Part shown: one piece after another, positions 35,242 to 50,196 of the stretch
How the letters are laid out: every line of letters begins with the position of its first letter
Position numbering within the stretch: position 1 is the stretch's first letter
DNA from: Herbiconiux sp.
Lineage (GTDB): Bacteria; Actinomycetota; Actinomycetes; Actinomycetales; Microbacteriaceae
Direction of reading: 5' to 3'
DNA: 61,186 bases
NCBI RefSeq assembly: GCF_023264855.1
Contig: NZ_JAHFUW010000022.1
Span: forward strand, 1 to 61,186
The notes under the pieces: generated by a model
What the model was told of the DNA's origin: nothing
The model's database searches: none
Seen by the model: only the letters and a program-made list of their open reading frames with translations
Translations under genes and position numbers: made by a program

Positions 35242-36042
35242 GTGGACGAATCATCGATTGCCCGCTCGGGCGACCGCCTTCTGGCGGCGTACGACTCGGG
35301 CATCCCGACCACGCCGATCACGGCCGAGGGCCCTGTGTCGCTCGAAGAGGCCTACGGCATCCAGCTGCACCAGGTGGACGCCTGGCTCGCCGCCGGGCGC
35401 CGGATCGCGGGCTTCAAGGTGGGACTCACCTCCCGCGCCATGCAGGTGCAGCTGGGCGTCGACCGCCCCGACTTCGGGCACCTGTTCTCGGACATGATCC
35501 TCGACGGCTCGGCGCCGATCGACATCGGCCGCTTCATCAGCCCCCGGCTGGAGCCGGAGATCTCGTTCGTGCTGAAGGACGAGCTGGCGGGGCCGGGCCT
35601 CACCCTGGTCGACGTCATCCGCGCCGTCGACTACGCCATCGCCTCGGTGGAGCTGATCGACTCCCGCATCGCCGACTGGAAGATCACGCTCGCCGACACG
35701 ATCGCCGACAACGCCTCCTCCGGCGGCCTGGTGCTCGGCACCAAGCCGCTGCGGATCGATGCGGCCGATCTGGGGCTGATCGGCTGCGTGCTGCAGAAGA
35801 ACGGCGAGGTCGTCGCCACCGGTGCCGGTGCCGCCGTGCTCGGGCATCCGCTGAACGCCGTGCTCTTCCTGGCCAACACCCTCGGCTCGCTCGGCCGTTC
35901 CCTTCCCTCCGGTTCGGTGGTGATGGCCGGAGCCCTCACCGCCGCCGTGCCGATCGCCCCGGGCGACCGCTTCACGGCCACCTTCGCGCACCTCGGCAGC
36001 GTCGAGGCCGCCTTCACCTCCGGAACAGGAGTCAGCGCATGA
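35242..36042 (+). CDS. 2-hydroxypent-2,4-dienoate (2-keto-4-pentenoate) hydratase
   Basis: Meta-pathway hydratase of 266 aa (DmpE/MhpD family) adding water to 2-hydroxypentadienoate to give 4-hydroxy-2-oxovalerate. Key blocks: [35 protein letters not shown] (metal-binding acids), [13 protein letters not shown] and [12 protein letters not shown]. The start is taken as GTG 35242 behind GGAG; GTG 35236 is also in frame. It heads a tightly overlapping five-gene operon. A paralogous decarboxylase (DmpH-like) is encoded three genes later. Confidence 0.93.
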
Positions 36043-36992
36043 CCACCGTCCACAGCATCCGGCCGGATGCCACGACCTCCGACCGGGCGGGATCGGGCCG
36101 CAGGCCCACCGCCGCCATCGTGGGGCCGGGCAACATCGGCACCGACCTGCTCGTGAAGCTGCTGCGCAACGAGCACCTCGACGTGCACTCGATGGTGGGG
36201 GTCGACCCCGCCTCCGACGGCCTGGCCCGCGCCCGGTCGATGGGCGTCGAGGCGAGCGCCGAAGGCGTGCCGTGGCTGCTCGCGCAGTCCGAGCTGCCCG
36301 ACTTCGTGTTCGAGGCCACCTCGGCCAAGGCCCACGAGGCCAACGCCCCGCTCTACGCGGAGGCCGGCATCGTGGCGATCGACCTCACGCCCGCCGCGAT
36401 CGGCCCGTTCGTGTGCCCCGCCGTGAACCTGGCCGAGCACACGTCGGAGAAGAACCTCAACATGATCACCTGCGGTGGCCAGGCCACCATCCCGATCGTG
36501 AACGCGGTCGCGAGCGTGACACGGGTGCCCTACGCCGAGATCGTCGCCACCATCTCCTCGCGTTCGGCCGGGCCCGGCACGCGCGCCAACATCGACGAGT
36601 TCACCGAGACCACGTCGCACGCGATCGAGAAGGTAGGCGGCGCCGAGCGGGGCAAGGCGATCATCATCCTGAACCCCGTCGAGCCCGCGATGATCATGCG
36701 CGACACCGTCTTCTGCTCGCTCGAGCCCGGCGCCGACCGCGACGCGATCAGCGCCGCCATCCACGCACGGGTGGCCGAGGTGCAGCGGTACGTGCCCGGT
36801 TACACGCTGCGCAGCGATCCGCAGTTCGACGACCCGAACGAGCTCTGGGGCGGCCGGGGCCGGGTCGCGGTGTTCCTGGAGGTCACCGGCAACGGCGACT
36901 ACCTGCCGCCGTGGGCCGGCAACCTCGACATCATGACCGCCGCCGCCGTGCGCGTCGGCGAACTGCTCGCCTCGGGCCGGAGCGTCGCATGA
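36039..36992 (+). CDS. Acetaldehyde dehydrogenase (acylating)
   Basis: DmpF/MhpF-type enzyme of 317 aa converting acetaldehyde, NAD and CoA to acetyl-CoA, normally by channelling from the aldolase. The Rossmann motif is [18 protein letters not shown], the catalytic Cys is in [12 protein letters not shown], and [19 protein letters not shown] is conserved. An extra ~20-residue N-terminal stretch precedes the core. Start and stop overlaps of 4 bases on both sides (hydratase and aldolase) show strict co-translation. Confidence 0.96.
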
Positions 36993-38059
36993 GCGCCCCC
37001 GAGATTGTGGGCGCGGCCGGGGCCGCCTCCGCATCCGCCCCCGCTGCCAAGCGCCCCGTCCGCCTCACCGATACCACCTTGCGCGACGGATCGCACGCCG
37101 TGCGCCACCGTTTCACCGAGCAGCAGGTTCGCGACATCGTGCGCGGTCTCGATCAGGCGAACGTCGAGGTGATCGAGGTCACCCACGGCGACGGCCTGGC
37201 CGGCTCCTCCTTCAACTACGGCTTCAGCCTGGTGCGTGACATCGATCTCGTGGCCGCCGCCGCCGACGAGGCCGAGCGGGCCCGCATCGCCGTGCTGCTG
37301 CTGCCGGGTCTCGGAACCGTGACCGACCTGCGCGAGGCCCGGGATGCCGGGGCCGCGGTGGCGCGGGTCGCCACGCACTGCACCGAGGCCGATGTCTCGA
37401 TCCAGCACTTCCAAGCCGCGCGCGAGCTCGGCATGGAGACCGTGGGCTTCCTGATGCTCTCGCACCGCATCGGGCCGGCCGACCTGGCCGCGCAGGCCCG
37501 CATCATGGCGGATGCCGGATGCCAGGGCGTGTACGTGGTCGACTCGGCGGGCGCCCTGCTGCCCGAGGGTGCGGCCGCGCGCGTGGCGGCCCTCGTCGAC
37601 GAGCTGGGCGACGACGCCCAGGTGGGCTTCCACGGACACCAGAACCTCTCGCTCGGGATCGCCAACTCGATCGCCGCCTACGAGGCCGGCGCGAAGCAGA
37701 TCGACGGCACGCTGTGCGCACTCGGCGCGGGCGCCGGCAACTCGCCCACCGAGGTGCTGGTCTCCGTGTTCAGCGCCCTCGGCATCCCCACCGGCGTCGA
37801 CGAGGAGCAGATCCTGGCCGTGGCCGAGGACGTGCTGCGCCCCCTCATCACGAGGCTGCCCGTCGCCGACCGCGCCTCGATCGTGCAGGGGCGTTACGGT
37901 GTCTACAACTCGTTCCTCCTGCACGCCGAGCGCGCCTCGGAGCGGTACGGCGTGCCGGCCTACCAGATCCTCAAGCGCGTCGGTCAGGCGGGCTACGTGG
38001 GTGGACAGGAAGACATGATCATCGACGTCGCCATCGAGCTCGCCAAGGAATCCGTATGA
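36989..38059 (+). CDS. 4-hydroxy-2-oxovalerate aldolase
   Basis: DmpG/MhpE-type class II aldolase of 356 aa that splits 4-hydroxy-2-oxovalerate into pyruvate and acetaldehyde and forms a channel with the dehydrogenase encoded just upstream. HMGL-like barrel motif [15 protein letters not shown]; catalytic His in [15 protein letters not shown]; metal-binding [13 protein letters not shown]. The C-terminal communication domain (~290-356) that docks the dehydrogenase is present ([20 protein letters not shown]). There is an Ala-rich N-terminal extension of ~20 residues. Confidence 0.96.
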
Positions 38060-38880
38060 GCGGCGGGGACGTGGAGACCGGCGCGAGCACCCGTGCGTGG
38101 GGCGTCGAGCGCGTGGTCGACACGCTGCTCGAGGCCGAGCACGGCCGCCACGACATCACGCGCCTCACCGAGGAGTGGGACGGGCTCGACCTCGGCGCCG
38201 CGTACCGGGCGCAGCGCCTGCTGATCGCGCGGAAGCTGGCATCCGGAGAATCGCGTGTCGGCGTGAAGCTCGGGCTCACCTCGCGGGCCAAGCAGCAGCG
38301 CATGGGCATCACCTCGCCGCTCACCGGCGTGCTCACCGACGGTATGGCGCTGACCGCGGGAGAGCCCGTGCCCTTCGGCGCGCTCATCCACCCCCGCATC
38401 GAACCGGAGATCGTGTTCGTGATGCGCTCGCGACTCGCCGGCCCCGGCGTCACGGCCGCGACGGCGCTCGCCGCGGTCGGCAGCGTGCACGCCGGGCTCG
38501 AGGTGATCGACAGCCGCTTCCGCGACTTCAGCTTCGCTATGCCCGACGTGGTGGCCGACAACGCCTCCAGCTCGCGCTTCACCGTCTCGGCCACCGGTGT
38601 GTCGGCGCTCGGGCTCGACCTCGTGCTCGAAGCCTGCGTGCTGCGCAAGAACGGCGTGGTGGTCGACACCGCCACCGGTGCCGCCGTGCAGGGCAACCCG
38701 CTCGAGGCGCTGGCGCTGGCCGCCAACGACCTCGCGAGCCGGGGCGAGGCGATCGAAGCCGGCGACCTCGTGCTCACCGGCGGCCTCACCGATGCCGTGT
38801 TCGTGCAGCCGGGCGACGAGGTCTCAGCAGAATTCACGTCACTGGGTTCGGTGACGCTCTCCGTGGAAGGAACATCATGA
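38056..38880 (+). CDS. 2-oxo-3-hexenedioate (4-oxalocrotonate) decarboxylase
   Basis: DmpH-like enzyme of 274 aa, homologous to the hydratase four genes earlier in order. Blocks: [21 protein letters not shown] in two parts, [37 protein letters not shown]. By operon position after the aldolase and before semialdehyde dehydrogenase it should be the decarboxylase of the oxalocrotonate branch. Sequence alone cannot fully separate decarboxylase from hydratase. Overlaps both neighbours by 4 bases. Confidence 0.9.
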
Positions 38881-40388
38881 CCACCGTTCTCCCGACCGCC
38901 GCCACCGGCGCATCCGGAACCGCCACCGGGCCCGAGGGCCTGCTGCCCCGCTTCGGCCACGTCATCGACGGAGTGGAGGTGCAGTCGGCCTCGGGCGAGG
39001 TGTTCGCGAGCATCGACCCGTACACCCGCAAGCCCTGGGCCGAGATCGCCCTCGGCGGCCAGGCCGAGGCCGACCTCGCCGTCGCCGCGGCCCGGCGCGC
39101 CTTCGACGAGGGGCCGTGGCCCCGGATGACGGCGGGTGCGCGCCGCACCGTCATCCACCGCTTCGCCGATCTGCTGATCGAGCACGCCGACGAGCTCGCG
39201 CTCGCCGACACGCGGGACATGGGCAAGCCCATCACCCAGAGCAAGGGCAACGACGTGCCGCGCACGGCCTTGAACTTCCGCTTCTTCGCCGACCACGCCG
39301 CACTCAGCCCGGCCGAGGTGCTGCCGATGGACTCGGGGCACCACACCTATACGCGGTTCGATCCCGCCGGGGTCGTGGTGGCGATCGCGCCGTGGAACTT
39401 CCCGATGATGCTCGAGAGCTGGAAGGTGGCGCCCGCGCTCGCCTGGGGCAACACCGTGGTGCTGAAGCCGGCCGAAGACACCCCGGTGTCGGCCACCATC
39501 ATGGCGCGGCTGGCGCTGGAGGCGGGCATCCCGCCCGGCGTCTTCAACGTCGTTCACGGCTACGGGCCGGAGTCGGTGGGCTCGGCGCTGACCGAGCATC
39601 CGGATGTCGACCGCATCACCTTCACGGGCGAGTCGGGCACCGGCAAGATCATCGCCCGGGCGGCCTCGGCCAACCTCGTGCCGGTGAGCCTCGAGCTCGG
39701 CGGCAAGGGTGCCAACGTGGTGTTCGCCGATGCGGAGATCGAGAACGCGATCGACTGGTCGATCAAGGCCATCTTCACCAACGCCGGGCAGGTCTGCCTC
39801 GCGGGCAGCCGCATCTATGTGGAGCGCCCGCTCTACGAGGAGTTCGTCGACCGCTTCGTGGCGGCGGCGAATGCCATGACCATCGGTGACCCGAAGGATC
39901 CGGCCACCCAGATCGGCCCGCTCGCCAGCGGCGAGCACTACACGAAGGTGCGCGGCTACTACGACACCATCGGCGAGTCGGGCGGATCGCAGCTCTCGGG
40001 CTCGCTGGGGGAGGGCTGGTTCATCGCCCCCACCGTGATCGCGACGCCCGACAGCGACTCGGTGCACCAGCGTGAGGAGATCTTCGGGCCGATCGTCACC
40101 ATCTCGCCCTTCGACACCGAGGAGGAGGCGGTGAACCTGGTGAACGACAGCCCGTACGGGCTGAACGCCATGCTGTTCACCGAGAACCTCACCCGCGCGC
40201 ACCGGGTCTCGGCTGCGCTGGTGGTGGGCACCGTCTGGGTCAACTGCTTCTTCATCCGCGACCTGCGGGCGCCCTTCGGCGGCGCGAAGGCCTCGGGGGT
40301 GGGACGTGAGGGCGGCAATTTCAGCCGCGAGTTCTTCACCGAGCCCAAAGCCGTCGTGATGCAGATGCTGCCGCCCGCACCCCACTGA
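38877..40388 (+). CDS. Aldehyde dehydrogenase, 2-hydroxymuconic semialdehyde dehydrogenase-like
   Basis: NAD-dependent aldehyde dehydrogenase of 503 aa. Substrate-site motif VAIAPWNFPMMLESWKVAPA, NAD loop ITFTGESGTGKII, catalytic Glu in SLELGGKGANVVF, catalytic Cys in NAGQVCLAGSRIYVE, and C-terminal EEIFGPIVTISPF. It ends the overlapping operon and probably oxidises the extradiol product (2-hydroxymuconic semialdehyde or analogue) into the oxalocrotonate branch. Assignment to that substrate rests on context. Confidence 0.92.
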   Translation: MTTVLPTAATGASGTATGPEGLLPRFGHVIDGVEVQSASGEVFASIDPYTRKPWAEIALGGQAEADLAVAAARRAFDEGPWPRMTAGARRTVIHRFADLLIEHADELALADTRDMGKPITQSKGNDVPRTALNFRFFADHAALSPAEVLPMDSGHHTYTRFDPAGVVVAIAPWNFPMMLESWKVAPALAWGNTVVLKPAEDTPVSATIMARLALEAGIPPGVFNVVHGYGPESVGSALTEHPDVDRITFTGESGTGKIIARAASANLVPVSLELGGKGANVVFADAEIENAIDWSIKAIFTNAGQVCLAGSRIYVERPLYEEFVDRFVAAANAMTIGDPKDPATQIGPLASGEHYTKVRGYYDTIGESGGSQLSGSLGEGWFIAPTVIATPDSDSVHQREEIFGPIVTISPFDTEEEAVNLVNDSPYGLNAMLFTENLTRAHRVSAALVVGTVWVNCFFIRDLRAPFGGAKASGVGREGGNFSREFFTEPKAVVMQMLPPAPH

Positions 40389-40437
40389 CCTGTTCATTTC
40401 CCCGAACCGATCGCACGACCGAGCAAAGGAGCTTCGG

Positions 40438-41199
40438 ATGAATCGACTAGAGGGCAAGCGCGTCTTGCTGACGGGCACCGCGGGCGGGCAGGGCGAAGCC
40501 GCCCAGCGCCGCTTCGCCGAAGAGGGCGCCCGCATCGTGGGCTGCGATGTGCAGCCGGGAGCCGCCGAGCGCACGGCCGAGGTACTGCGTGCCGAGGGGT
40601 ACGACGTCACGGGCCACACGCTCGACCTGTCGGATGCCGACGCGACCGCCGCGTGGGTGGAGGCCGGCGCCGAGTCGCTCGGCGGCATCGACGTGCTCTA
40701 CAACAACGGGGCGGGCTACGGCTTCTCGCCGTTCGAGGACATGACCCGTGAGCTGTGGCTGCACGTCATGGACGTGGAGCTCAACATCGTGTTCAACACC
40801 ATCTCCCCGGCGTGGAAGCACCTCAAGGCCTCGGGGGCGGCCTCCATCATCAACACCGCCTCGATGTCGGCCCTGCGCGGCATCGCACCGCTCGGCCAGG
40901 TGGCGCACGCCGCCGCCAAGGCGGGAGTGGTGGGCATGACGAAGTCGCTCGCCGCCGAGGGCGCCGAGCACAACATCCGCGCCAACGCCATCTCGCCCGG
41001 CTTCGTGAAGTCGCCCGCGACGGATGCCGCCGTGGGCCCCGAGCTGCGCGAGTTCCAGCTCGGGATGCACCTCATCCGCCGGGCCGGCGTGGGCGACGAC
41101 ATCGCACACCTCGCGGTGTACCTGGCCTCCGACGAGTCGGCCTGGACGACCGGCCAGAACATCTCGGTCGACGGCGGAGTGACGGCCGGCTTCCGCTAG
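40438..41199 (+). CDS. SDR family protein with His in place of the catalytic Tyr
   Basis: Short-chain dehydrogenase-like protein of 253 aa. Cofactor loop LTGTAGGQGEAAQ, VLYNNGAGYG in place of the usual NNAG, catalytic-position Ser in NTASMSAL, and late segments SPGFVKSP and ISVDGGVTAG. The YxxxK motif reads H157-A-A-A-K161, so the general-acid Tyr is replaced by His (codon CAC at 40906). The gene starts 49 bases after the aldehyde dehydrogenase stop with AAAGGAGC before the ATG, so it is probably read with the operon. Activity may be altered or absent. Confidence 0.9.
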   Translation: MNRLEGKRVLLTGTAGGQGEAAQRRFAEEGARIVGCDVQPGAAERTAEVLRAEGYDVTGHTLDLSDADATAAWVEAGAESLGGIDVLYNNGAGYGFSPFEDMTRELWLHVMDVELNIVFNTISPAWKHLKASGAASIINTASMSALRGIAPLGQVAHAAAKAGVVGMTKSLAAEGAEHNIRANAISPGFVKSPATDAAVGPELREFQLGMHLIRRAGVGDDIAHLAVYLASDESAWTTGQNISVDGGVTAGFR

Positions 41200-41250: not shown

Positions 41251-43164
41251 TCAGCAGACGGTCAGCTTCTCGACCGCGGGCGACAGCGACGCGGTGCCGC
41301 CCAGGAGCGTCACATCCTGCACGCCCCGGCTGGTGATGTCGTCGATCACGCGCTGGGGCACGCAGGTTCCCGGCACCACGTAGAGCGGCGCGCCGCGCGC
41401 TCCGGCGACGGCCGCGCCGGAGAGGGCATCGGGGAAGTTCGATCCCGTCGCGAGGTAGAGCGACGTGGCGGAGGTGAACGCCTGCCCGTTGATGTTCTGC
41501 GAAGCGGAGTAGCGGTCGTTCCCCCACAGCCGGGTGATCTCCGGCAGCGGCCCCCAGATCGCGTTCGTGAAGGCGAACATGACGGAGTCCTGGATGGTGT
41601 TCGGCCCGCCCACGACGTAGGCCTGATCGGGATTCAGTTCCTCGAAGAGCGACCTCGTGTCGGGGTCGAAGGCGTCGGGGTGTGCGGGGTCGGCGCGGCC
41701 GGGGATCAAGATCACCGGATAGCCACGCGAACCCGCGGCGGCGCTCGCCGACAACGCGTCGGGGAAGTTCTCCCCGGCCGCCACATAGATGCCGTCGGCC
41801 GTGCCGAATGCGTACCGGGCCACGCCGCGCGACACCGCGTACCGATCGGCCCCCTCGATGGCCGTGACCGGGGCGATCGACGCGAGAGCGCCGCGGACGG
41901 CTTGCGAGACGGAGTTCACTCCACCGACGGTCACGATCGTCGCGGGGTGGAGGCGCCGGATCTCGTCCTCCACGGCCTGCGGGAGGGCCGCGGTGGGGGT
42001 CAGCAGCACCGGTCCGCCCTGTTTCACGGCCGCGGGCGCCGCACTGAGGGCATCGGCGAACTTCTCGCCCGTGGCCACGTAGACCACGGATGCACCGTCG
42101 GGGAACCCGTCTCGCGACACCTTCACGGCGACGTCGTAGCGATCGGTGCCGCTGATGCGGTGAGTGACCGGATGCGCCGGCGCGGGCTGGCCGGTCGGCA
42201 CCACGATGATCGAGCTCGGATTCAGTGTCACCACGTACAGCTTCGAGCCGTCGGGTGAGGTCGTGACGCTGTTCGGCATCGCCGGCAGCTCGGTGGTTCT
42301 GAGGATGGTGCCGGAGGCGTAGTCGAGGGCCAGCAGATGGTTGTTCTTCGAATTGACTGTGTAGAGCTCCGATCCCGATGCCGAGAGATCGACCGAGACC
42401 GCGCCGTCGAAGTCGGTGGGGATGGTCGAGCCGCCGGTCGTGAAGCTCAGGTCGGCCACCGCGATGCGGTTGCTTCCGGTGGCGAAGAACGCCCGCGAAC
42501 CGTCGGGAGAGAAGGCGAGGCGCGGGGTCCAGCCGGCGGCACCGCCGGACCCGGTGAGCTTTCGGGTGACCGGATCGTATCGGGCGATCTCGCCGCTGAT
42601 GGCGGCGTAGACCGCTGAGCCGTCGGGGGTGAATCGGATGAAGGTGGCGTCGGAGCCGCCGAGATACGACACCGTGGGGTTCGACCGCAGGTGATCCACG
42701 ATCTCGATCCCGTCTTCCGCGGCCACCCAGGCGGTGTCGCCGTCGGGCGCGATCGCGACGTCCCACGCCTTCGCGTTCAGGGTGATGGTCTTGATCGCCT
42801 TGTCGGTCGCGACGTCGATGACGGTCAGTTTGCCGGGAGGCCCGCTCTGGCTCGCGACGTAGGCCCGTGAGCCGTCCGGGGAGAACCCCACACTGCGCGG
42901 GTGCGGCGCGACCGTGATCGTCGCGCGCACCGCGTCGGTCGCCGTGTCGAACACCGTCACCGTGTTCGTGTCGTAGGCCGCGATGTAGCCGAGCCGTCCG
43001 TCGGGAGTGAATTCCGGCATGACGGCACCGGACCCGACCGGGATCGTGACGTACCCCGCATCGCCCTCCGCGGCGTCGGCCGGCTGCGCTGCCGACAGCG
43101 AGCCGCCGGCCAGCAGCAGTGCCGCGACAGCGAGGAGGGCGGGGCGGAACGGCAGGCGCGGCAT
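41251..43164 (-). CDS. Secreted beta-propeller (YVTN) protein with CWB2 wall-binding repeats
   Basis: Surface protein of 637 aa. A signal peptide (~1-31, ending ADAAEG) leads into a seven-bladed-type propeller of YVTN/NHL repeats (~33-325) with recurrent FSPDGSRAYVAS, APDGDTAWVAA, FTPDGSAVYAA and TSPDGSKLYVV. Three CWB2 repeats follow (~335-637), beginning RISGTDRYDVAVKVS, AIEGADRYAVSRGVA and RLWGNDRYSASQNIN, with the KFADALSAAPAA- and NFPDALSA-type motifs. It is probably tethered to the secondary wall polymer and displays the propeller outside. The ligand is unknown. Confidence 0.92.
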   Translation of the reverse strand: MPRLPFRPALLAVAALLLAGGSLSAAQPADAAEGDAGYVTIPVGSGAVMPEFTPDGRLGYIAAYDTNTVTVFDTATDAVRATITVAPHPRSVGFSPDGSRAYVASQSGPPGKLTVIDVATDKAIKTITLNAKAWDVAIAPDGDTAWVAAEDGIEIVDHLRSNPTVSYLGGSDATFIRFTPDGSAVYAAISGEIARYDPVTRKLTGSGGAAGWTPRLAFSPDGSRAFFATGSNRIAVADLSFTTGGSTIPTDFDGAVSVDLSASGSELYTVNSKNNHLLALDYASGTILRTTELPAMPNSVTTSPDGSKLYVVTLNPSSIIVVPTGQPAPAHPVTHRISGTDRYDVAVKVSRDGFPDGASVVYVATGEKFADALSAAPAAVKQGGPVLLTPTAALPQAVEDEIRRLHPATIVTVGGVNSVSQAVRGALASIAPVTAIEGADRYAVSRGVARYAFGTADGIYVAAGENFPDALSASAAAGSRGYPVILIPGRADPAHPDAFDPDTRSLFEELNPDQAYVVGGPNTIQDSVMFAFTNAIWGPLPEITRLWGNDRYSASQNINGQAFTSATSLYLATGSNFPDALSGAAVAGARGAPLYVVPGTCVPQRVIDDITSRGVQDVTLLGGTASLSPAVEKLTVC

Positions 43165-43307: not shown

Positions 43308-44471
43308 TCAGCGCTCGGGGCGGAGGGAGCGGAACGTCGCGCGTACGTCGTCGACGAAGAGGTCGGGCTGCTCGAGCGCCGCGTAGTGCCCGCCGCGGGG
43401 TGCCTCGTGGAAGAGCACCAGGTCGGTGAAGCGGCGGCGCAGCCAGCGTTCCGACTGGCGCACCGGCTCGCCCGGGAACTGTGTGTAGCCGGTGGGAACG
43501 GTGATCGGATGCTCGATCGTGACGGGCGACGCCCAGCCCGCGTTCCTCAGCTCCCAGTACGTGCGCGCCGAGGTCACGCCGGCGCCGGGCAGCCAGTACA
43601 GCATGAAGTCGTCGAGCAGCTCGTCCTTCGTGAACGTCGCGAGCGCGTCATCCGGGGTGGCGCAGCCGTTCTGGAACACCGAGTAGAGCCAGGCGGCCAG
43701 TCCCACCGGCGAGTCGGCCAGCGAGTAGCCGATCGTCTGCGGGCCGCTCTGGTGCTGCTGGGCGTACGACGACTTGTTCACCCAGAAGTCCTGGCCGTCG
43801 GCGAGGATGCGTCCCTCCGTGGCATCCGCCTCGGCGATCTCGGCCGGCGTCGGTTGCGCGGTGGAGAAATTGAGGTGCATCCCGACCAGCCCGCGCGGAT
43901 TCGTGGCCGCGATCGTCTCCGACACGCCCGCGCCCAGATCGCCTCCTTGGATGCCCCAGGACTCGTAGCCCAGCCGATTCATCAGGGTGACCCAGGCCTC
44001 TGCGATGCGGTCGAACGACCAGCCCGTCGACGTGGGCGCGCTCGAGAAGCCGAAGCCCGGCATCGAGGGAGCGATCACATGGAACGCGTCCCGCGCGTCT
44101 CCGCCGAAGGCCACGGGGTCGGTGAGGGGCCCGATCACTTTGCGGAACTCCAGCACCGAGCCCGGCCAGCCGTGCGTCATGAGCAGCGGCAGCGCATCCG
44201 GCTCGGGCGAGACCGCGTGCAGGAAGTGCACGTCGACGCCATCGATGGAGGTCTGGAACTGCCCGATCCCGTTCAGCTCGCGTTCCACCCGCCGCCAGTC
44301 GTAATGGTCGCGCCAATGCTCCACGAGCGGCCGCAGCTGCTCGAGCCGCACGCCCTGGCTGCCGTCGTCGACGGTCTCCGCGACCGGCCACCGTGTGAGG
44401 GCGAGTCGCGCGCGCAGGTCGTCGAGCTCGCTCTCGGGGATGTCCAGGAGGAAGGGCCGGATGTCGCTCAT
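43308..44471 (-). CDS. Epoxide hydrolase (microsomal-type alpha/beta hydrolase)
   Basis: Epoxide hydrolase of 387 aa with the N-terminal EHN domain (~1-110: ARLALTRWPVAETVDDGSQG then WRDHYDWRRVE). Oxyanion-site motif THGWPGSVLEF, nucleophile Asp in GIQGGDLGAGVSE, a lid region, and the catalytic His near HEAPRGGHYAALEQPD. Such enzymes hydrate epoxides to diols. It is the last gene of the HtaA - reductase - P450 - ABM - hydrolase operon and overlaps the ABM gene by 4 bases, so it may act on an epoxide made by the P450. Confidence 0.92.
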   Translation of the reverse strand: MSDIRPFLLDIPESELDDLRARLALTRWPVAETVDDGSQGVRLEQLRPLVEHWRDHYDWRRVERELNGIGQFQTSIDGVDVHFLHAVSPEPDALPLLMTHGWPGSVLEFRKVIGPLTDPVAFGGDARDAFHVIAPSMPGFGFSSAPTSTGWSFDRIAEAWVTLMNRLGYESWGIQGGDLGAGVSETIAATNPRGLVGMHLNFSTAQPTPAEIAEADATEGRILADGQDFWVNKSSYAQQHQSGPQTIGYSLADSPVGLAAWLYSVFQNGCATPDDALATFTKDELLDDFMLYWLPGAGVTSARTYWELRNAGWASPVTIEHPITVPTGYTQFPGEPVRQSERWLRRRFTDLVLFHEAPRGGHYAALEQPDLFVDDVRATFRSLRPER

Positions 44472-44758
44472 GCGGGCACGGCCTCGCCGAGGCGCATCGC
44501 CGGCGCGCCCGCCAGAAGCGGGCCGATCGCGCCGAGGAAGGACTGCCCGGCCGGGCTCGCGACGGCCGCCTCCAGGTCGGCCTTCGAGGCCCAGTCGATC
44601 ACTCCCAGAACGGAGTCGTCATCGTCGATCTGGGTGAAGAAGCGGGCGCTCTGCACGCCCGGCTGCGCCAGGTAGGCGGGGCCGGTCTCGGCGACCTTCT
44701 GCAGGAACTCCGCCCGGCGGCCGGGCTGGACGGTGAGGGTGATGATTTCGGTGGGCAT
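44468..44758 (-). CDS. ABM-fold (quinol monooxygenase-like) small protein
   Basis: Protein of 96 aa with the dimeric alpha/beta barrel pattern of antibiotic biosynthesis monooxygenase/YgiN proteins: EIITLTVQPGRRAEFLQKVA, then QPGVQSARFFTQIDDDDSVLG and IDWASKADLEAAVAS. These cofactor-free enzymes oxidise quinols, or serve as non-catalytic binding proteins. The start codon follows the P450 stop by 40 bases, and its stop overlaps the epoxide hydrolase start. Confidence 0.82.
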   Translation of the reverse strand: MPTEIITLTVQPGRRAEFLQKVAETGPAYLAQPGVQSARFFTQIDDDDSVLGVIDWASKADLEAAVASPAGQSFLGAIGPLLAGAPAMRLGEAVPA

Positions 44759-44798
44759 GGTCAGGCTCCTTGTCGGCGGTGGATGGTGGGGTCAGGCG

Positions 44799-45989
44799 TC
44801 AGGCGGGCACGAAGGTCAGCGGCATCCGCTCGACCGAGAGGCGCGGCCAGGTGTCGCGCTCGATCGGGCCGGTGAGCGTGAAGGAGCGCGTGCGCTTCAG
44901 CAGCTCTTCGATGGTGAGGCGGATCTGCATCCGCCCGAGCGGGGCGCCCGGGCACTGGTGCATCCCTCGGCCGAACGCGAAGTGCGGGCGGGTGGGGCGG
45001 TCGAGGTCGTACTCGGCCGGGCGGTCCCAGAAGGCGGGGTCGACGTTGGCCGATCCGTAGTTCAGGAACAGCGGTGAGCCGGCCGGGATGTCGACCCCGT
45101 CGATCGTGACGTCGGTGGTGACCATCCGCGGCATCTGCTGCTGCGGGCTGTCCAGGCGCAGGCTCTCCTCCATCGCGTCGGAGATGCGCTCGGGATGCGC
45201 GCGCAGGAACGCCTGCAGCTCCGGGTTCTGCGCCAGTCGCAGCACCAGGTTGGTGACACCCGAGGCCGTGGTGGAGCGGCCGGCGAGGATGAGCGCGATG
45301 ATCAGCCCGATCACGATCTGGTCGTCGAGCGGGGAACCGTCGATCTCGGCGGCGAGGAAGCGGCTCACCGGGTCGGTGCCGGGGTTCTGCCGGGCCTCGC
45401 CGATCAGCTTGCCGAGGTAGGGGATGATCTTCCCGAAGTGCTCGGCGGGCAGTGCATTGCCCGAGTTGCGCGAGCCCGATGCGGTGAGCTTCTCCATCGT
45501 GCTCGACCAGTCGTTGAAGATGCTCCAGTCGTCCTCCACCCGCAGCAGCACGCAGAGGCTGTGGGTGGTGAACGGGTACGCGTATTCCTGCGAGAAGTCG
45601 GCGGAGCCCGCGGCGATCATCCGGTCGAGCCACTCGGCGGCCAGCGGGCGCACCTCCGCCTCCACGCGGGCGATCTCGTCGGCCTTGAAGCACTCGCCGA
45701 ACAGGCGGCGGTACGGGGTGTGCTCGGGCGGGTCGGCCATCAGCGGCAGGATGCGCGGGGTGCCGGGCGGCACGGTCACACTGCTGAAGGTGGCCGTGTC
45801 GAGTGCTGCCTTCTGGATGGCCTCGCGGCTGAACAGGCCGTAGCTGGGGTTTCCGTCACCGCGGTCGAGCAGGCCCACGGAGCCCTGGTGCAACAGGGCC
45901 TCGTAGACGCCCGCGGTTCCGGGGGCCTCGCCGTGGCGGAGGGCGGCGAATTCGGCCTCGGGGTTCCAGGCCAGTGCTGTCGTGCTCAT
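44799..45989 (-). CDS. Cytochrome P450
   Basis: Soluble haem monooxygenase of 396 aa. Haem-binding loop HFAFGRGMHQCPGAPLGR with Cys346, ExxR pair Glu275/Arg278 (EESLRLD), helix C region ADPPEHTPYRRLFGECF. The I-helix reads A236-G-R-S-T-T241: the acid normally before the oxygen-activating Thr is Ser239. Start ATG 45989 with GAAGGAGA upstream. It lies 40 bases downstream of a diflavin reductase gene, so electrons probably come from NADPH via that protein rather than from a ferredoxin. The substrate is not predictable. Confidence 0.95.
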   Translation of the reverse strand: MSTTALAWNPEAEFAALRHGEAPGTAGVYEALLHQGSVGLLDRGDGNPSYGLFSREAIQKAALDTATFSSVTVPPGTPRILPLMADPPEHTPYRRLFGECFKADEIARVEAEVRPLAAEWLDRMIAAGSADFSQEYAYPFTTHSLCVLLRVEDDWSIFNDWSSTMEKLTASGSRNSGNALPAEHFGKIIPYLGKLIGEARQNPGTDPVSRFLAAEIDGSPLDDQIVIGLIIALILAGRSTTASGVTNLVLRLAQNPELQAFLRAHPERISDAMEESLRLDSPQQQMPRMVTTDVTIDGVDIPAGSPLFLNYGSANVDPAFWDRPAEYDLDRPTRPHFAFGRGMHQCPGAPLGRMQIRLTIEELLKRTRSFTLTGPIERDTWPRLSVERMPLTFVPA

Positions 45990-46029
45990 TGTCTCTCCTT
46001 CGAGAACGGTGGGGCGGGGGGCGATCGGG

Positions 46030-47670
46030 TCAGTAGGTGTCTTTGTGCAGGCGGTTCTGCGCCCGGAGATCGGCGAGGGAAGTGCCGCCGGAGCGGCTCG
46101 GGCCGAGCGCGCTCTCGAGCGCCTGCTCGACGGCGGCCCCCATCGCACGGTCGCCGCAGATGTACAGCTCGGCGCCGGAGGCGATCCACTCGGCGAGCTC
46201 GTCGGCGCGGTCGAGGATGCGGTGCTGCACGTAGACCTTCTGCTCCTGGTCGCGTGAGAACGCGAGGTCGATGCGCTGCAGCGTGCCGTCGTTCAGCGCG
46301 GCCTGCCACTCGTGTTCGTACAGGTAGTCCGACGAGCGCCGCCGGTGCCCGAAGAACAGCCAGGCGGCTCCGGATGCTCCGCTCGCGCGCCGCTCCTGGA
46401 GGAACCCGCGGAACGGGGCCACGCCCGATCCGGGCCCGATCATCACCACGGGCGTCGACGGATCGGCGGGCAGCCGGAACTGCTCGTTCGGCGCGATGCG
46501 CACGCGGAACCGGCTGCCGATCGGCCGCCGGTCGATCAGGTCGCCGCTCGCCACGCCGGTGCGCTGCCCGCCGTCCGACGCTCGCCAGCTCGTCTCGGCG
46601 ACCAGCAGATCGAGCCGCCGCCGGCTGACGAGCGGGCTCGAGGCGATCGAGTACGAACGTGGCGGCTGAGCGCGCAGCAGTGACCGGAACTCGTTCGGAG
46701 TGAGCCGGGTGCGCACGCTGCGCAACAGGTCCGCCAGGCGGTGCGTGCCGAGGTAGCCGGCGAGGGCGCCGGGGCCGGCCGCGGCCAGCGTGCGCAGGCC
46801 GGGGTCGCCCGTGCGGTCCGCCCAGGCGGCGACGTGGGCGGCGGTGACCGAGGTGATGTCGAGGTCGCGCAGCTCGGCGCGCAGGGCCTCGTGGTCCGAG
46901 AGGCCCACGGCCTCGAGCAGGTCGTCGATCACGGCCGGATCGTTCTGCGGGGTGATCAGCACCACGTCGCCCGCCTCGAAGGATGCATCCCGGTCGAGTT
47001 CGAGCGTGAGCTGAACCGAGCGGCGCTCGGCCCCCTCACCGTGCAGCTCGCGCCGTTCGGCCAGCACGGCCTCGTACTCCTCGCCGGGCTGCTCGAGGGT
47101 GATCGCGGCTCCGGCTCCGGTGCCGGTGCCGGTGCCGGTGCCGGTGCCGGTGCCGGTCGCGGTCATCGGGGCGAGCAGCGGCACGGTGCGCGGGATCCAC
47201 CCGCTCGCGTCGGCCTGGTAGTCGAAGTCGCAGCGCACGAGCTCGGCCATCCGGATGCCGCCGAGCTCGGCCAGGCGGGCGTCGAGGGTCTCGCCGTGGC
47301 CGCAGAAGGTCGGATACGCGAGGTCGCCGAGAGCGAGCACCGCGAAGCGCACCCCGTCGAAGCGCGGGGCGTCGTCAGCCAGCAGCGCGGCCAGGAAGCC
47401 CGCCGAGCGCTCGGGCGCCTCGCCCTCGCCGGCCGTCGCCGCCACCACGAGCAGCGATGCGGCGCTCGCGAGGTCGGCGGGCGCCACCTCGGCCAGGTCG
47501 ACCACGCGGTGCCCGAGTCCCAGGGAGGCGGCGTAGGCGCCGGCGGCCGCCGCGACGCCCCGCGCGTTTCCCGACTCGGTGGCGTACGCCACGATCAGCG
47601 TGCCGGAGGCCGCATCCGCCGGCCCGGTCGTGAGGATGACGGAGCGGTCGGCCGTCACGGCGCCGCTCAC
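46030..47670 (-). CDS. Diflavin reductase (CPR/CysJ-like), probable P450 redox partner
   Basis: NADPH reductase of 546 aa with FMN and FAD. Flavodoxin domain (~24-165): LIVAYATESGNARGVA, ATAGEGEAPERS, LGDLAYPTFCGHGE. A Thr-Gly repeat linker (~170-190) joins it to the FAD domain (~195-425; PPRSYSIASSPL, then RTGVASGDLIDR) and NADPH domain (MIGPGSGVAPFRGFLQERR, LFFGHRRRSSDYLYEHEWQ, ELYICGDRAMGAAV). GTG start overlapping the HtaA gene stop by 4 bases. CysJ sulfite reductase is the alternative, but no cysI is nearby and the next gene is a P450. Confidence 0.93.
   Translation of the reverse strand: MSGAVTADRSVILTTGPADAASGTLIVAYATESGNARGVAAAAGAYAASLGLGHRVVDLAEVAPADLASAASLLVVAATAGEGEAPERSAGFLAALLADDAPRFDGVRFAVLALGDLAYPTFCGHGETLDARLAELGGIRMAELVRCDFDYQADASGWIPRTVPLLAPMTATGTGTGTGTGTGTGAGAAITLEQPGEEYEAVLAERRELHGEGAERRSVQLTLELDRDASFEAGDVVLITPQNDPAVIDDLLEAVGLSDHEALRAELRDLDITSVTAAHVAAWADRTGDPGLRTLAAAGPGALAGYLGTHRLADLLRSVRTRLTPNEFRSLLRAQPPRSYSIASSPLVSRRRLDLLVAETSWRASDGGQRTGVASGDLIDRRPIGSRFRVRIAPNEQFRLPADPSTPVVMIGPGSGVAPFRGFLQERRASGASGAAWLFFGHRRRSSDYLYEHEWQAALNDGTLQRIDLAFSRDQEQKVYVQHRILDRADELAEWIASGAELYICGDRAMGAAVEQALESALGPSRSGGTSLADLRAQNRLHKDTY
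47117..47152. repeat. Hexanucleotide microsatellite in the reductase interdomain linker
   Basis: Six perfect tandem copies of CCGGTG with degenerate units on both sides (47111-47116 and 47153-47158). On the coding strand it encodes alternating Thr-Gly between the FMN and FAD domains. Slippage would change linker length by two residues and keep the frame. Confidence 0.9.
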
Positions 47671-48167
47671 GAGCCCACCGCCGATCCGCCCGGTGCGAGA
47701 CGCGCGGAGAACGGGTCGAGCGGGGTGCCCTGCTCGTACACCCCGCCCAGAAAGGCGATGCCCGAGGCGGTGAGGGTACAGGTGAGCGACTCCCACACCG
47801 AGGCCCCGTCGTCTCCGACGGAGTACGCGCAGGAGACGGTCGCGAGGATCAGCCGGGCATCCGGCTCGCCGATCTCCAGCACACCGGTACCGGCCGTGAG
47901 TCGCAGCAGCGGATCGCGCACGGTCACCTCCAGCGCCCCGAAATGCCCGGTGTAGCGCACCGATCCGGCGAAGCCGATCTCACCGTCGCCGCTCGCCGCA
48001 TCGAAGCGGGCCGTGGCCGGCGCGAATACCAGGTCCCACCCCGGCACCACCGAGGCGCCGTGGCCGAGGTCGATGCCGCCGCCGGGGGAGGCGGCCGTGT
48101 ACCGGGCGAAACTCTGCTTGACCGGCCAGCTCAGTCCGTGCAGCGCGGTGCGGGGGAGGGTGGGCAC
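47667..48167 (-). CDS. HtaA-domain haem-binding protein without signal peptide
   Basis: Protein of 166 aa made of one HtaA (haem transport-associated) domain. The expected haem-site residues are present: Tyr23 (KQSFARYTA), His75 (VRYTGHFGALEV) and Tyr144 (FLGGVYEQGTPLDPFS). GTG 48167 is chosen because GAAGGAG stands directly upstream; it leaves no room for a signal peptide. Known HtaA proteins are secreted or wall-bound haem receptors of corynebacteria, so an apparently cytoplasmic copy, translationally coupled to a P450 reductase, is unexpected. It may hold or deliver haem for the P450, or it may use the fold differently. Confidence 0.8.
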   Translation of the reverse strand: MPTLPRTALHGLSWPVKQSFARYTAASPGGGIDLGHGASVVPGWDLVFAPATARFDAASGDGEIGFAGSVRYTGHFGALEVTVRDPLLRLTAGTGVLEIGEPDARLILATVSCAYSVGDDGASVWESLTCTLTASGIAFLGGVYEQGTPLDPFSARLAPGGSAVGS

Positions 48168-48199: not shown

Positions 48200-48215
48200 G
48201 TGTCGAAATGGACAC
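48200..48215. promoter_or_regulatory. Inverted repeat upstream of the HtaA-P450 operon
   Basis: GTGTC-GAAATG-GACAC, a perfect 5-bp inverted repeat next to ACATGT, 33 bases upstream of the first gene of the operon. Possible operator; no cognate regulator identified. Confidence 0.35.
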
Positions 48216-48296
48216 ATGTCTATTCGTGACGAGTCTCCGCATCCGTCTCGCCCACGTCAAGTGCCCGGTCCGCTGAGTGGGATGCCGGGCGCACGA

Positions 48297-48336
48297 CGAA
48301 GCGCCCCTCTCCGTGCGGGACGGGAGGGGCGCTTCG
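48297..48336 (-). terminator. Terminator between the tautomerase operon and the HtaA operon
   Basis: A perfect 13-bp stem (CGAAGCGCCCCTC at 48297-48309 and GAGGGGCGCTTCG at 48324-48336) with a 14-base loop lies 42 bases past the tautomerase stop. It separates the two minus-strand operons. Confidence 0.85.
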
Positions 48337-48377
48337 TTTACGACGCCGGGGCGTCGAGGGGGTGGGGAGGATCCGGC

Positions 48378-48581
48378 TCAGGTGCCCGCGGCGGCCGCCT
48401 TCTCGGCGAGGGTGACCCCGCCCGACGACCAGTGCTCGGGCGGCACCTCGCGCACGACCACGCGGATGCTCTGGGCCGGCGCCCCGAGCGATCGCTCGAC
48501 CGCGCCGTGCAGCTCGCTCATCAGCGAGCGCAGCTGCTCGGGGGTGCGGCCCGCCGCGACGGTGGCCTCGATGAACGGCAT
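48378..48581 (-). CDS. 4-oxalocrotonate tautomerase family enzyme
   Basis: Small tautomerase of 67 aa beginning MPFIEATVAAGRTPEQLRSL, so the catalytic Pro1 is exposed after Met removal. Arg residues of the active site are plausible at RSL and IRVVVREVPPEHW. It would isomerise 2-hydroxymuconate to 2-oxo-3-hexenedioate, the one meta-pathway step not encoded in the operon at 35-40 kb. Its ATG overlaps the extradiol dioxygenase stop by one base (TGATG). Confidence 0.92.
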   Translation of the reverse strand: MPFIEATVAAGRTPEQLRSLMSELHGAVERSLGAPAQSIRVVVREVPPEHWSSGGVTLAEKAAAAGT

Positions 48582-49531
48582 CAGGCCCCCTGCAGACTGG
48601 GAGCGGACGCCGGGGTGGCATCGGACGCGGGGGGCGTGGCATCCGTCACCGCCGGCTCGTCGTCGACCTGGTACTGCGTCGAGGCGCGCTGCGTGGGCCC
48701 GCCCCACATGTCGATCGAGTTCGGCAGCGCCGGGTCGAAGTAGCGCGGCACCCAGCTGGCGTCGTCCTCGATGCGGCGCACACCGTAGGAGTACTCGTAG
48801 GTGAGCCCCTCCGGCCCCTTGAAGTAGATGAACACGGCCGTGGACTGCGGATGCCGTCCCGGGCCCTGCTCGATCTCCACCTCGTGCTTCTCGAGGAAGT
48901 GCCAGCTGCGCATCACGTCGTCGATCGACTCCACCTGGAAGTTGATGTGGCAGAGGCCGGGCCGATCGCCCTGGAACACCGCGAGCTTGTGGTGCACCGG
49001 ATCGAAGCGCATGAGCGCCGCCTTGTTGCCGATCCAGTCGCTGATCTTGATGTTGAACAGCGAGCTCCACCACTCGAAGGCGGCGCGCGGGTCGGGCGCG
49101 TCGACGCAGAGGTGGCCGAACTCGATGATGCCGGCCCGGCGGCTGAACTCCACCGGTGCGGCATCCGACTCGGCGTCGACCACGAGGTCGAAACGGTTGC
49201 CCCACGGGTCGAGGAACTCGAGGAACTCCCGCACGTGACGCGAGTGTGCCTCCTCGGGCGTGCCCCAGCGCGTGGTGATGCCGGCCAGGGTGAGCTCCAC
49301 CTCGGCGGCGCGCAGCGCGGCGCTGTCGGCGAGCGAGAGGCCCGAGCTCAGCACGCCCGAGCGGCCCTCCACGAAGGCGAGGCAGTGGTGGCGGCCGTCG
49401 GCGCGCAGGTAGTGCACGCCGTCTTCGCTGCCGCGGTACTCCATGCCCACGATCTCGGTGGCGAAGCGCACCGCCTCGGCCGCGTCGGCCGATCCGGAGC
49501 GCACGTACTGGATGTCTTTCAGTTCGATCAC
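48581..49531 (-). CDS. Type I extradiol dioxygenase (BphC/catechol 2,3-dioxygenase-like)
   Basis: Second two-module meta-cleaving dioxygenase, 316 aa. The Fe(II) triad is visible as His140 (IEFGHLCVD), His195 (GLCHINFQV) and Glu246 (LTYEYSYG). The residues around GPGRHPQSTAVFIYFKGPEG are conserved. The C-terminal ~30 residues are a Thr/Ala/Pro-rich tail not usual for the family. GTG start overlapping the aldolase-like gene stop by 4 bases. It resembles dioxygenases for substituted catechols; the exact substrate is open. Confidence 0.9.
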   Translation of the reverse strand: MIELKDIQYVRSGSADAAEAVRFATEIVGMEYRGSEDGVHYLRADGRHHCLAFVEGRSGVLSSGLSLADSAALRAAEVELTLAGITTRWGTPEEAHSRHVREFLEFLDPWGNRFDLVVDAESDAAPVEFSRRAGIIEFGHLCVDAPDPRAAFEWWSSLFNIKISDWIGNKAALMRFDPVHHKLAVFQGDRPGLCHINFQVESIDDVMRSWHFLEKHEVEIEQGPGRHPQSTAVFIYFKGPEGLTYEYSYGVRRIEDDASWVPRYFDPALPNSIDMWGGPTQRASTQYQVDDEPAVTDATPPASDATPASAPSLQGA

Positions 49532-50196
49532 GAGAGGTCCTTTCCCTCAGGGTTGGCGAGATGGGTGTAGATGCGGGGCAGGAGCTCGGCGGCACGGTCG
49601 CGCCACCACTCCTGCTCGTCGAGGGGGATGGTCTGCGGATCGCCGGCGGCCAGGGCGCGCAGGGCGAGTTCGGCCGTGCGCTCGAGCAGCCACATCCGGG
49701 CCACCGCCTCGGCGAGGTCGCGGCCGCGCGTGACGGCGCCGTTGCCGAGCAGGATGATCGCGTCGGCATCGCCGGCCGAGCGCGCGACGGCGGCGCCGCC
49801 CGCCGCGTCGCGCACGAGACGGGAGTCGTGGTGTACCGCCACCGGGCCGAGCATCGCGGCGTGCCCGTTGAGGGCCGGCAGCTCGCGGCCGAGCGCGGCG
49901 AAGGCCGCGAGCTTCGGCGGTTGCGCCCGGCATACCGCACCGATCCCGGGCCGGCGGTCATAGAGGGCGGTGTGGATCCAGGCCTCCTTGGGCGCGCCGT
50001 CCGGCAACTCGGCGGCGTCCAGGGGCACGGAGGTGAGAGTGGATCCCGTCGAGAGGGAACCCAGTGGCCTCGGCGGCGTGATGGCGAAGGCCCCGGCTGC
50101 GGTGCGCACCGAGAGATGGCCGAAGGCATCGACCAGCCCGGCCGCCGCGACCGCGTGGGCCGCTTCGGTCAGCCGATCCTGCACGTCGTCGTCCAT
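49528..50196 (-). CDS. Class II aldolase/adducin family protein with degenerate metal site
   Basis: Protein of 222 aa with the FucA/adducin fold (GLVDAFGHLSVRTAAGAF, APKEAWIHTALYDRRPGIGAV). In this family decarboxylases act after extradiol cleavage of 3-carboxycatechols (for example CmtD of the p-cumate pathway), which fits its place upstream of the dioxygenase. The HxH zinc motif is Arg-Ala-Gln here (VCRAQPP) and the later NHG/RGHG motif is GNG (LLGNGAVTRG), so the metal ligands appear lost. It may be inactive, metal-free or regulatory. Confidence 0.82.
   Translation of the reverse strand: MDDDVQDRLTEAAHAVAAAGLVDAFGHLSVRTAAGAFAITPPRPLGSLSTGSTLTSVPLDAAELPDGAPKEAWIHTALYDRRPGIGAVCRAQPPKLAAFAALGRELPALNGHAAMLGPVAVHHDSRLVRDAAGGAAVARSAGDADAIILLGNGAVTRGRDLAEAVARMWLLERTAELALRALAAGDPQTIPLDEQEWWRDRAAELLPRIYTHLANPEGKDLS

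Follow-up and report, generated by a model that had tools for sequence, protein, structure and literature searches.

The stretch of DNA analyzed here, a contig of Herbiconiux sp. (NZ_JAHFUW010000022.1, positions 1 to 61,186; the window of 61,186 nucleotides in full), carries on its minus strand, at 43308–48167, a five-gene operon encoding, in order of transcription, an HtaA protein, a diflavin reductase, a cytochrome P450, an ABM-domain protein and an epoxide hydrolase. The new point is that the HtaA protein belongs to a cytosolic family which keeps its heme pocket and which, in Actinomycetes, shows a strong but not constant link to P450 genes. We tentatively read the operon, with a confidence somewhat short of even, as a catabolic P450 monooxygenase equipped with its own electron donor and with a dedicated cytosolic HtaA heme chaperone or buffer, the latter role being one that we infer. 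Unusual as it is, the operon makes sense as a P450 cluster.

The first gene (47667..48167, GTG start) encodes the cytosolic single-domain HtaA, or CR, protein of 166 amino acids (aa; Pfam HtaA E 4e-22), and is followed by those for a CysJ-like diflavin reductase of 546 aa (46030..47670; Flavodoxin_1, FAD_binding_1 and NAD_binding_1), the P450 of 396 aa (44799..45989; Pfam p450 E 3e-26), the ABM-domain protein of 96 aa (44468..44758; Pfam ABM E 1e-10) and a microsomal-type (EHN) epoxide hydrolase of 387 aa (43308..44471; Pfam EHN E 1e-37). Overlaps of 4 bases join HtaA to the reductase gene and ABM to that of the epoxide hydrolase, and gaps of 40 bases separate the reductase from the P450 gene and the latter from ABM. 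A first-pass annotation of this DNA had put forward a minus-strand operon of these five genes, joined by overlaps or gaps of about 40 bases and headed by an HtaA gene with a 4-base overlap into the reductase gene, and all of this stands: each gene lies where it had been placed, and Pfam supports the domain identity of all five products.

The HtaA protein is one CR domain, scoring 80 bits with Pfam HtaA against a cut-off of 24. It has no hydrophobic N-terminus (maximum KD19 0.84) and, by hydropathy, no C-terminal anchor, and for these reasons we do not file it as a heme-uptake HtaA, although capture of heme outside the cell is what HtaA proteins are known for. An AlphaFold2 model built from 15 sequences (pLDDT 88) gives CR domains as Foldseek matches, namely 6jsd_A (E 3e-9), 6jsa (TM-score 0.75) and 8smu. 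CR domains contact heme through an axial Tyr and the Ser four positions ahead of it, through another Tyr closer to the C-terminus and through a helper His, replaced by Tyr in ChtA (PMC12494546), and all four map onto the HtaA protein, as S19, Y23 (axial), H75 (helper) and Y144. With these residues and the modeled fold in place, the protein is predicted to bind ferric heme via Tyr23 with His75 as helper. The other Pfam HtaA match in the genome is weak (24.4 bits against the cut-off of 24) and lies in a 799-aa open frame.

Cytosolic HtaA genes were surveyed in overlapping sets of genomes from the order (297), the class (394) and the phylum (296) and in three family sets (35, 149 and 249). Candidates were picked from the matches listed, by profile score and mostly a short open frame, before their neighbors were viewed, and not every match was taken; flanks of the chosen loci were then fetched and genes called by script. 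The resulting 60 genes, for single-domain proteins without a signal-like N-terminus (N-terminal KD19 ≤1.37 across the 60 loci), comprise that of the operon, seven from plasmids and 52 from genomes. The plasmid matches fell in 10 records, of which H5, H8 and H10 were left out, and in the seven counted the signal-less HtaA genes sit inside catabolic gene clusters. Locus L147 (R. qingshengii) was inspected and is not among the 60; at L049 and L103 gene calling gave no HtaA gene, whereas L074, with a start that is probably called wrongly, was included manually. The controls are 12 HtaA genes for proteins of several domains, of excess length or with hydrophobic stretches resembling a signal or an anchor, and L062–L066 were retrieved to represent long HtaA genes of the exported type; flanks are short near contig ends for some of the 12 controls and, among the 60, for L057, L104 and L105. 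In the alignment of the 60 proteins, the axial and the second Tyr are both invariant (60/60 each), and the helper His and the Ser/Thr are each kept in 57, two of the three His exceptions carrying Tyr, as in ChtA. The contact set is much the same whether members are P450-linked (His 32/33, both Tyr 33/33) or not (His 25/27, both Tyr 27/27).

A P450 gene lies within 5 kb at 29 of the 60 HtaA loci, or in 23 of the 44 clusters formed at 55% identity; at 8.5 kb the counts are 33 loci and 26 clusters. Neighbor P450s were recognized by their resemblance to a small set of reference P450s, so that some may be missed. At the 5-kb distance none was found at 20 shifted loci of the same genomes, nor at any of the 12 exported or multi-domain HtaA genes. 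For the non-plasmid loci, 24 of 53 have a P450 within 5 kb versus 1.41 expected from the per-genome counts of P450 candidates, and the computed probability of 8e-26 overstates the case, as related loci are not independent. Among the families looked for within 5 kb, P450 is the commonest, followed by ferredoxin reductase (FdR, 19/60), short-chain dehydrogenase/reductase (SDR, 14/60) and aldehyde dehydrogenase (ALDH, 13/60), with LysR at 7/60. In L070, L078, L079, L089 and L102 the HtaA gene overlaps the P450 gene or lies directly against it, and in the Herbiconiux genome the sole P450 and the sole such HtaA share one operon. The association is strong, not universal; the first-pass annotation had staked its proposal on such genes occurring together in other genomes, and for HtaA and P450 they do.

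The P450s beside HtaA vary, those compared being 29–34% identical to the operon P450 among the matches listed, and their redox partners vary as well. Ferredoxin plus reductase accompanies the P450 at L038, L061, L081 and L059, an FdR-like protein and a flavodoxin from separate genes at L079; at L089, P450, FdR-like and flavodoxin parts are fused in one 986-aa protein, and P450-first fusions of 1,006–1,015 aa occur at L043 (by Pfam) and at L072, L085, L087 and L097 (judged from size and similarity). No redox partner is labeled beside the P450 of L070 and L078. As HtaA stays constant while P450s and redox partners change, it is unlikely to belong to one electron chain, and as the recurring part it fits a heme-supply role better than a place in such a chain. 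The data do not support the idea that HtaA, diflavin reductase and P450 make up one defined system: HtaA goes with several redox types, the exact five-gene set is absent from every other locus examined, and four genomes of the same genus have no HtaA-profile match at E ≤1e-20, so that the gene is accessory. The fusions themselves come in two arrangements of P450, pyridine-nucleotide reductase and flavodoxin, one in the L043 type and the other in L089, as read from the Pfam matches of L043 and L089, and four of the five loci L043, L072, L085, L087 and L097 have a LysR-cluster gene overlapping HtaA.

The operon reductase joins an FMN flavodoxin domain to FAD and NAD(P)H domains (motifs YATESGNA, RSYSIASS, GPGSGVAPF and YICGD). 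Its nearest family is CysJ, although with 394 bits the NCBIfam cysJ cut-off of 668 is not reached, and its best PDB matches are sulfite reductase flavoproteins, with NADPH-P450 reductases and P450-reductase fusions ranking next; the initial description of the enzyme as similar to cytochrome P450 reductase (CPR) is better replaced by CysJ-like. Eukaryotic CPR carries an N-terminal membrane anchor, which the operon reductase lacks (N-terminal KD19 1.19). The P450 has the heme motif FGRGMHQCPG, an ESLR motif and the I-helix sequence AGRSTT without the usual acid, which is also missing from the AGHATT of its best plasmid homologue. In the genome assembly (4.37 Mb, 95% complete) the operon P450 is the single P450 at E ≤1e-8 (2 candidates scored), the reductase as query matches itself alone, and no PF01077 (NIR_SIR) sulfite or nitrite reductase hemoprotein was found at E ≤0.001 (2 candidates scored) in a search that was positive in 11 of 14 control genomes. 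Since just one P450, one reductase of this kind and no sulfite reductase hemoprotein were detected in the genome, the P450 is the likely electron acceptor; with a separate P450 and diflavin reductase encoded together, in the layout of class II systems, the split P450/diflavin pair already suggested on first inspection is the best reading, electron transfer being predicted. Sulfite reduction by the CysJ-like protein was considered and rejected for lack of a PF01077 match in this genome. Within the reductase gene, at 47110–47165, in-frame 6-base repeats (ccggtg) encode a (TG)n stretch in the part that separates the FMN domain from the FAD domain; this simple repeat may differ in length from strain to strain.

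In the mechanism that we propose, electrons would reach the P450 from NADPH by way of the two flavins, FAD and then FMN, of the CysJ-like reductase, as suggested by the architecture and by the fact that no other partner was detected in the genome. The P450 would form an epoxide or a hydroxylated product, the epoxide hydrolase would open the epoxide to a diol, and the diol would, judging from the neighborhood, probably enter the adjacent SDR, extradiol dioxygenase and meta-cleavage genes. HtaA would stay in the cytosol and load the P450 of its cluster with heme, or reload it after damage. As would befit a chaperone, its gene lies near a candidate client heme enzyme, within 5 kb at 29 of the 60 loci and here in the same operon. 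The nearest functional model, likened by its described function, is a cytosolic Tyr-ligating heme binder that serves a heme enzyme, Cj1386 of Campylobacter jejuni, which traffics heme to the catalase KatA via Tyr-ligated heme (PMC11442138); the client of HtaA would be a P450 instead of KatA, and its structural matches are HtaA structures. An HtaA protein of Dietzia is reported to take heme from a P450 in vitro (PMC8027190), and a protein of this kind can therefore exchange heme b with a P450.

A number of observations weigh against a P450-dedicated heme chaperone. The one P450/HtaA heme exchange cited, that of Dietzia, went the other way, out of the P450 and into HtaA, and involved a membrane-vesicle protein (PMC8027190). 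No P450 lies within 8.5 kb at 27 of the 60 loci, and in just 12 does it belong to the same same-strand run (gaps ≤150 bases), being elsewhere on the other strand or farther away. A further scan with a four-sequence HtaA alignment gave 18 loci, kept out of the counts and lying partly on the same contigs as the 60; three had no HtaA gene called, and the other 15, which are not independent of the 60, have a P450 in the 7-kb flanks in five cases (L126, L134, L138, L139 and L140). At loci without P450 the HtaA neighbors include EamA and other transporters, LysR and other regulators, chorismate mutase and amylase, and on two plasmids of Rhodococcus the HtaA gene comes immediately after those for a Rieske oxygenase and the reductase belonging to it, with a P450 a few genes on. 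The absence of a match from the four same-genus genomes points the same way. Finally, the pairing of reductase and P450 is rare: of 15 chosen stand-alone CysJ-like loci in other Actinomycetes only L168 has a P450 nearby, divergent and with one gene between.

HtaA might instead be a sensor of heme, or of another ligand, that controls neighboring genes together with a transcription factor. It overlaps genes of one LysR cluster at −4 in L043, L072 and L097 and at −8 in L071, L044 and L075, one gene of the cluster having been checked as LysR by Pfam, and it abuts or overlaps PadR-labeled (L093), IclR-labeled (L104) and PaaX (L074) genes. The LysR overlaps keep a sensing role open, yet we regard it as improbable, since LysR is found within 5 kb at just 7 of the 60 loci, the operon contains no regulator and HtaA has no DNA-binding part.

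A slimmer chance is given to a protein that binds a hydrophobic substrate or product rather than heme and passes it to oxygenases and transporters. The EamA, Mem_trans, major facilitator superfamily and ATP-binding cassette transporters and the Rieske oxygenase among the neighbors would suit such a carrier, but with another ligand one would expect the Ser/Tyr/His/Tyr heme contacts to be less conserved, and they are kept nearly throughout. No better is the prospect that HtaA marks catabolic islands in general, with P450s nearby merely as island members. The frequency of FdR, SDR and ALDH genes within 5 kb and the patchy occurrence of the gene within its genus would agree with this. However, P450s are the commonest neighbors although many of these genomes hold one to five of them, the shifted loci show SDR and ALDH at 2/20 each and P450 at 0/20, and at five loci HtaA directly overlaps or abuts a P450 gene.

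That HtaA acts as a b-type electron relay, like cytochrome b5, between reductase and P450 is very unlikely despite the 4-base overlap of the HtaA and reductase genes in the operon. Tyr-bound pentacoordinate ferric heme is unlike a b5 center. It is in this form that characterized CR domains bind heme (PMC12494546). Moreover, HtaA recurs with P450-redox fusions and with complete ferredoxin/FdR chains, neither of which needs a relay. Least credible, and close to negligible, is heme acquisition and degradation, in which HtaA would bind heme and the ABM protein would be an IsdG-like heme oxygenase fed by the reductase: the ABM superfamily includes IsdG/HmoA enzymes, eukaryotic heme oxygenase works with NADPH-P450 reductase and PDB fusions of these two match the operon reductase, but HtaA has no signal peptide, no heme transporter is found among the five genes, the P450 and the epoxide hydrolase would be left unexplained, and the ABM protein contains no histidine at all. 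As IsdG has a catalytic His, IsdG-like heme degradation by the ABM protein was rejected; its eight PDB matches at E ≤1 are weak and include ABM oxygenases and SnoaB, and IsdG is not among them.

Compared with known systems, the HtaA protein shares with the Corynebacterium hemophores HtaA, HtaB and ChtA the CR fold, the Pfam HtaA family, the axial Tyr, the helper His and the propionate-contact Ser and Tyr, but differs from them in having one domain and neither signal peptide nor membrane anchor. It is encoded with a P450 system, whereas corynebacterial HtaA is encoded with heme transporter genes (PMC11442138). With class II P450 systems the operon shares a diflavin donor encoded next to the P450, and P450-reductase fusions are among the weaker PDB matches of the operon reductase; unlike in class II systems, the reductase is CysJ-like without an N-terminal anchor, and HtaA, ABM and epoxide hydrolase genes are added. 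On two Sphingobium plasmids (MI1205/TKS; L144, L146) a P450, a Rieske ferredoxin and a CysJ-like reductase, 39% identical to that of the operon, likewise lie in a catabolic cluster. These clusters differ by the Rieske ferredoxin and by having no HtaA among the genes listed, and their P450 and hydrolase give no BLAST match to those of the operon at E ≤1e-3. The combination of P450, Rieske-type ferredoxin and CysJ-like diflavin reductase in L144 and L146 is in itself an unusual one. The P450-ferredoxin-FdR-HtaA cluster of a Rhodococcus R138 plasmid shares a cytosolic HtaA with a 4-base overlap to the last P450-system gene, and differs in its class I redox partners and other pathway genes. A conserved five-gene cassette was not found: the best P450 in the plasmid collection is 38.5% identical and has a PDR/VanB reductase beside it, the best reductase homologues found are 39–42% identical, and a scan of genome contigs with the operon P450 gave no confirmed match.

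No description of cytosolic HtaA proteins linked to P450s was found in the open-access literature. Heme supply to bacterial cytosolic heme enzymes is an open question, and a 2024 review calls bacterial heme trafficking 'not self-evident' and lists few proteins (PMC11442138). A small cytosolic, probably heme-binding family near P450s would allow a direct test with two purified proteins. P450 biocatalysis is reported to be held back by its heme supply (PMC9951570), and there a chaperone role, if true, would find practical use; P450-dedicated HtaA chaperones would, if real, form a class of P450 partner undescribed in the searchable literature. It is conceivable, though on balance rather unlikely, that Actinobacteria turned an exported HtaA hemophore domain into cytosolic heme chaperones for P450s, which were taken up next to unrelated P450s that rely on redox chains of several types. 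Here such a chaperone would complete a set like that of eukaryotes, in which P450, diflavin reductase and an epoxide hydrolase of the microsomal type feed aromatic ring cleavage.

Upstream of the operon, between HtaA and the preceding tautomerase gene, lies a strong hairpin of about 42 bases (48296..48337, minus strand, by folding energy), which is the probable operon boundary. The first-pass annotation had named it a strong terminator. Its strength is borne out, the segment 48280–48360 that contains it folding at −50.1 kcal/mol (z −5.9); a terminator role is plausible, although the minus strand shows no clear U-tract there and the terminator scan did not call it. Nearer to HtaA, some 32 bases upstream of its start, the inverted repeat GTGTC-N6-GACAC (48200–48215) is a possible operator; in the terminator scan it figures solely as a plus-strand site resembling a terminator.

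At the other end of the operon, the epoxide hydrolase is close to epoxide hydrolases of solved structure (PDB 5f4z, E 8e-100) and contains HGWP, GGDLG and GGHYAALE, which we take to be the conserved epoxide hydrolase catalytic motifs and of which the latter two align with 5f4z. Outside the operon, tautomerase, extradiol dioxygenase and class II aldolase/decarboxylase genes (48378..50196, minus strand; Pfam, NCBIfam) are probable pathway partners, and a meta-cleavage lower pathway lies at 35242..41199 on the plus strand (NCBIfam), consisting of hydratase, acetaldehyde dehydrogenase, 4-hydroxy-2-oxovalerate aldolase, a decarboxylase of the oxo-hexenedioate type, a dehydrogenase of the hydroxymuconic-semialdehyde type and an SDR, with curated NCBIfam cut-offs passed by the acetaldehyde dehydrogenase and the aldolase alone. 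A possible route would lead from the P450 via epoxide and diol, and by SDR, to a catechol and ring cleavage; oxidation of a side chain by the P450 is as open. A Rieske ring-hydroxylating dioxygenase was considered as the source of meta-cleavage substrate, and none of the three Rieske matches in the genome reads as one, flavin hydroxylases not having been searched for: by sequence, one looks like a QcrA-type protein, another like a ferredoxin encoded among Suf-like genes, and the third like the C-terminal portion of a FAD-oxidoreductase-like protein of 528 aa.

Directly downstream of the operon, the protein encoded at 41251–43164 ends in repeats that look to us like cell-wall-binding repeats, and similar repeats occur near the other HtaA match of the genome (L002), on the same strand in another reading frame. 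Elsewhere, L077, L080, L091 and L092, from genomes of 1.6–1.8 Mb and with no P450 within 8.5 kb, share the order EamA transporter, chorismate mutase, cytosolic HtaA (Pfam on L077). On the Paenarthrobacter/Pseudarthrobacter plasmids of L036, L037 and L039, a cytosolic HtaA is found with a glutamine synthetase (ipuC in one), with P450, ferredoxin and FdR, and with another CysJ-like reductase.

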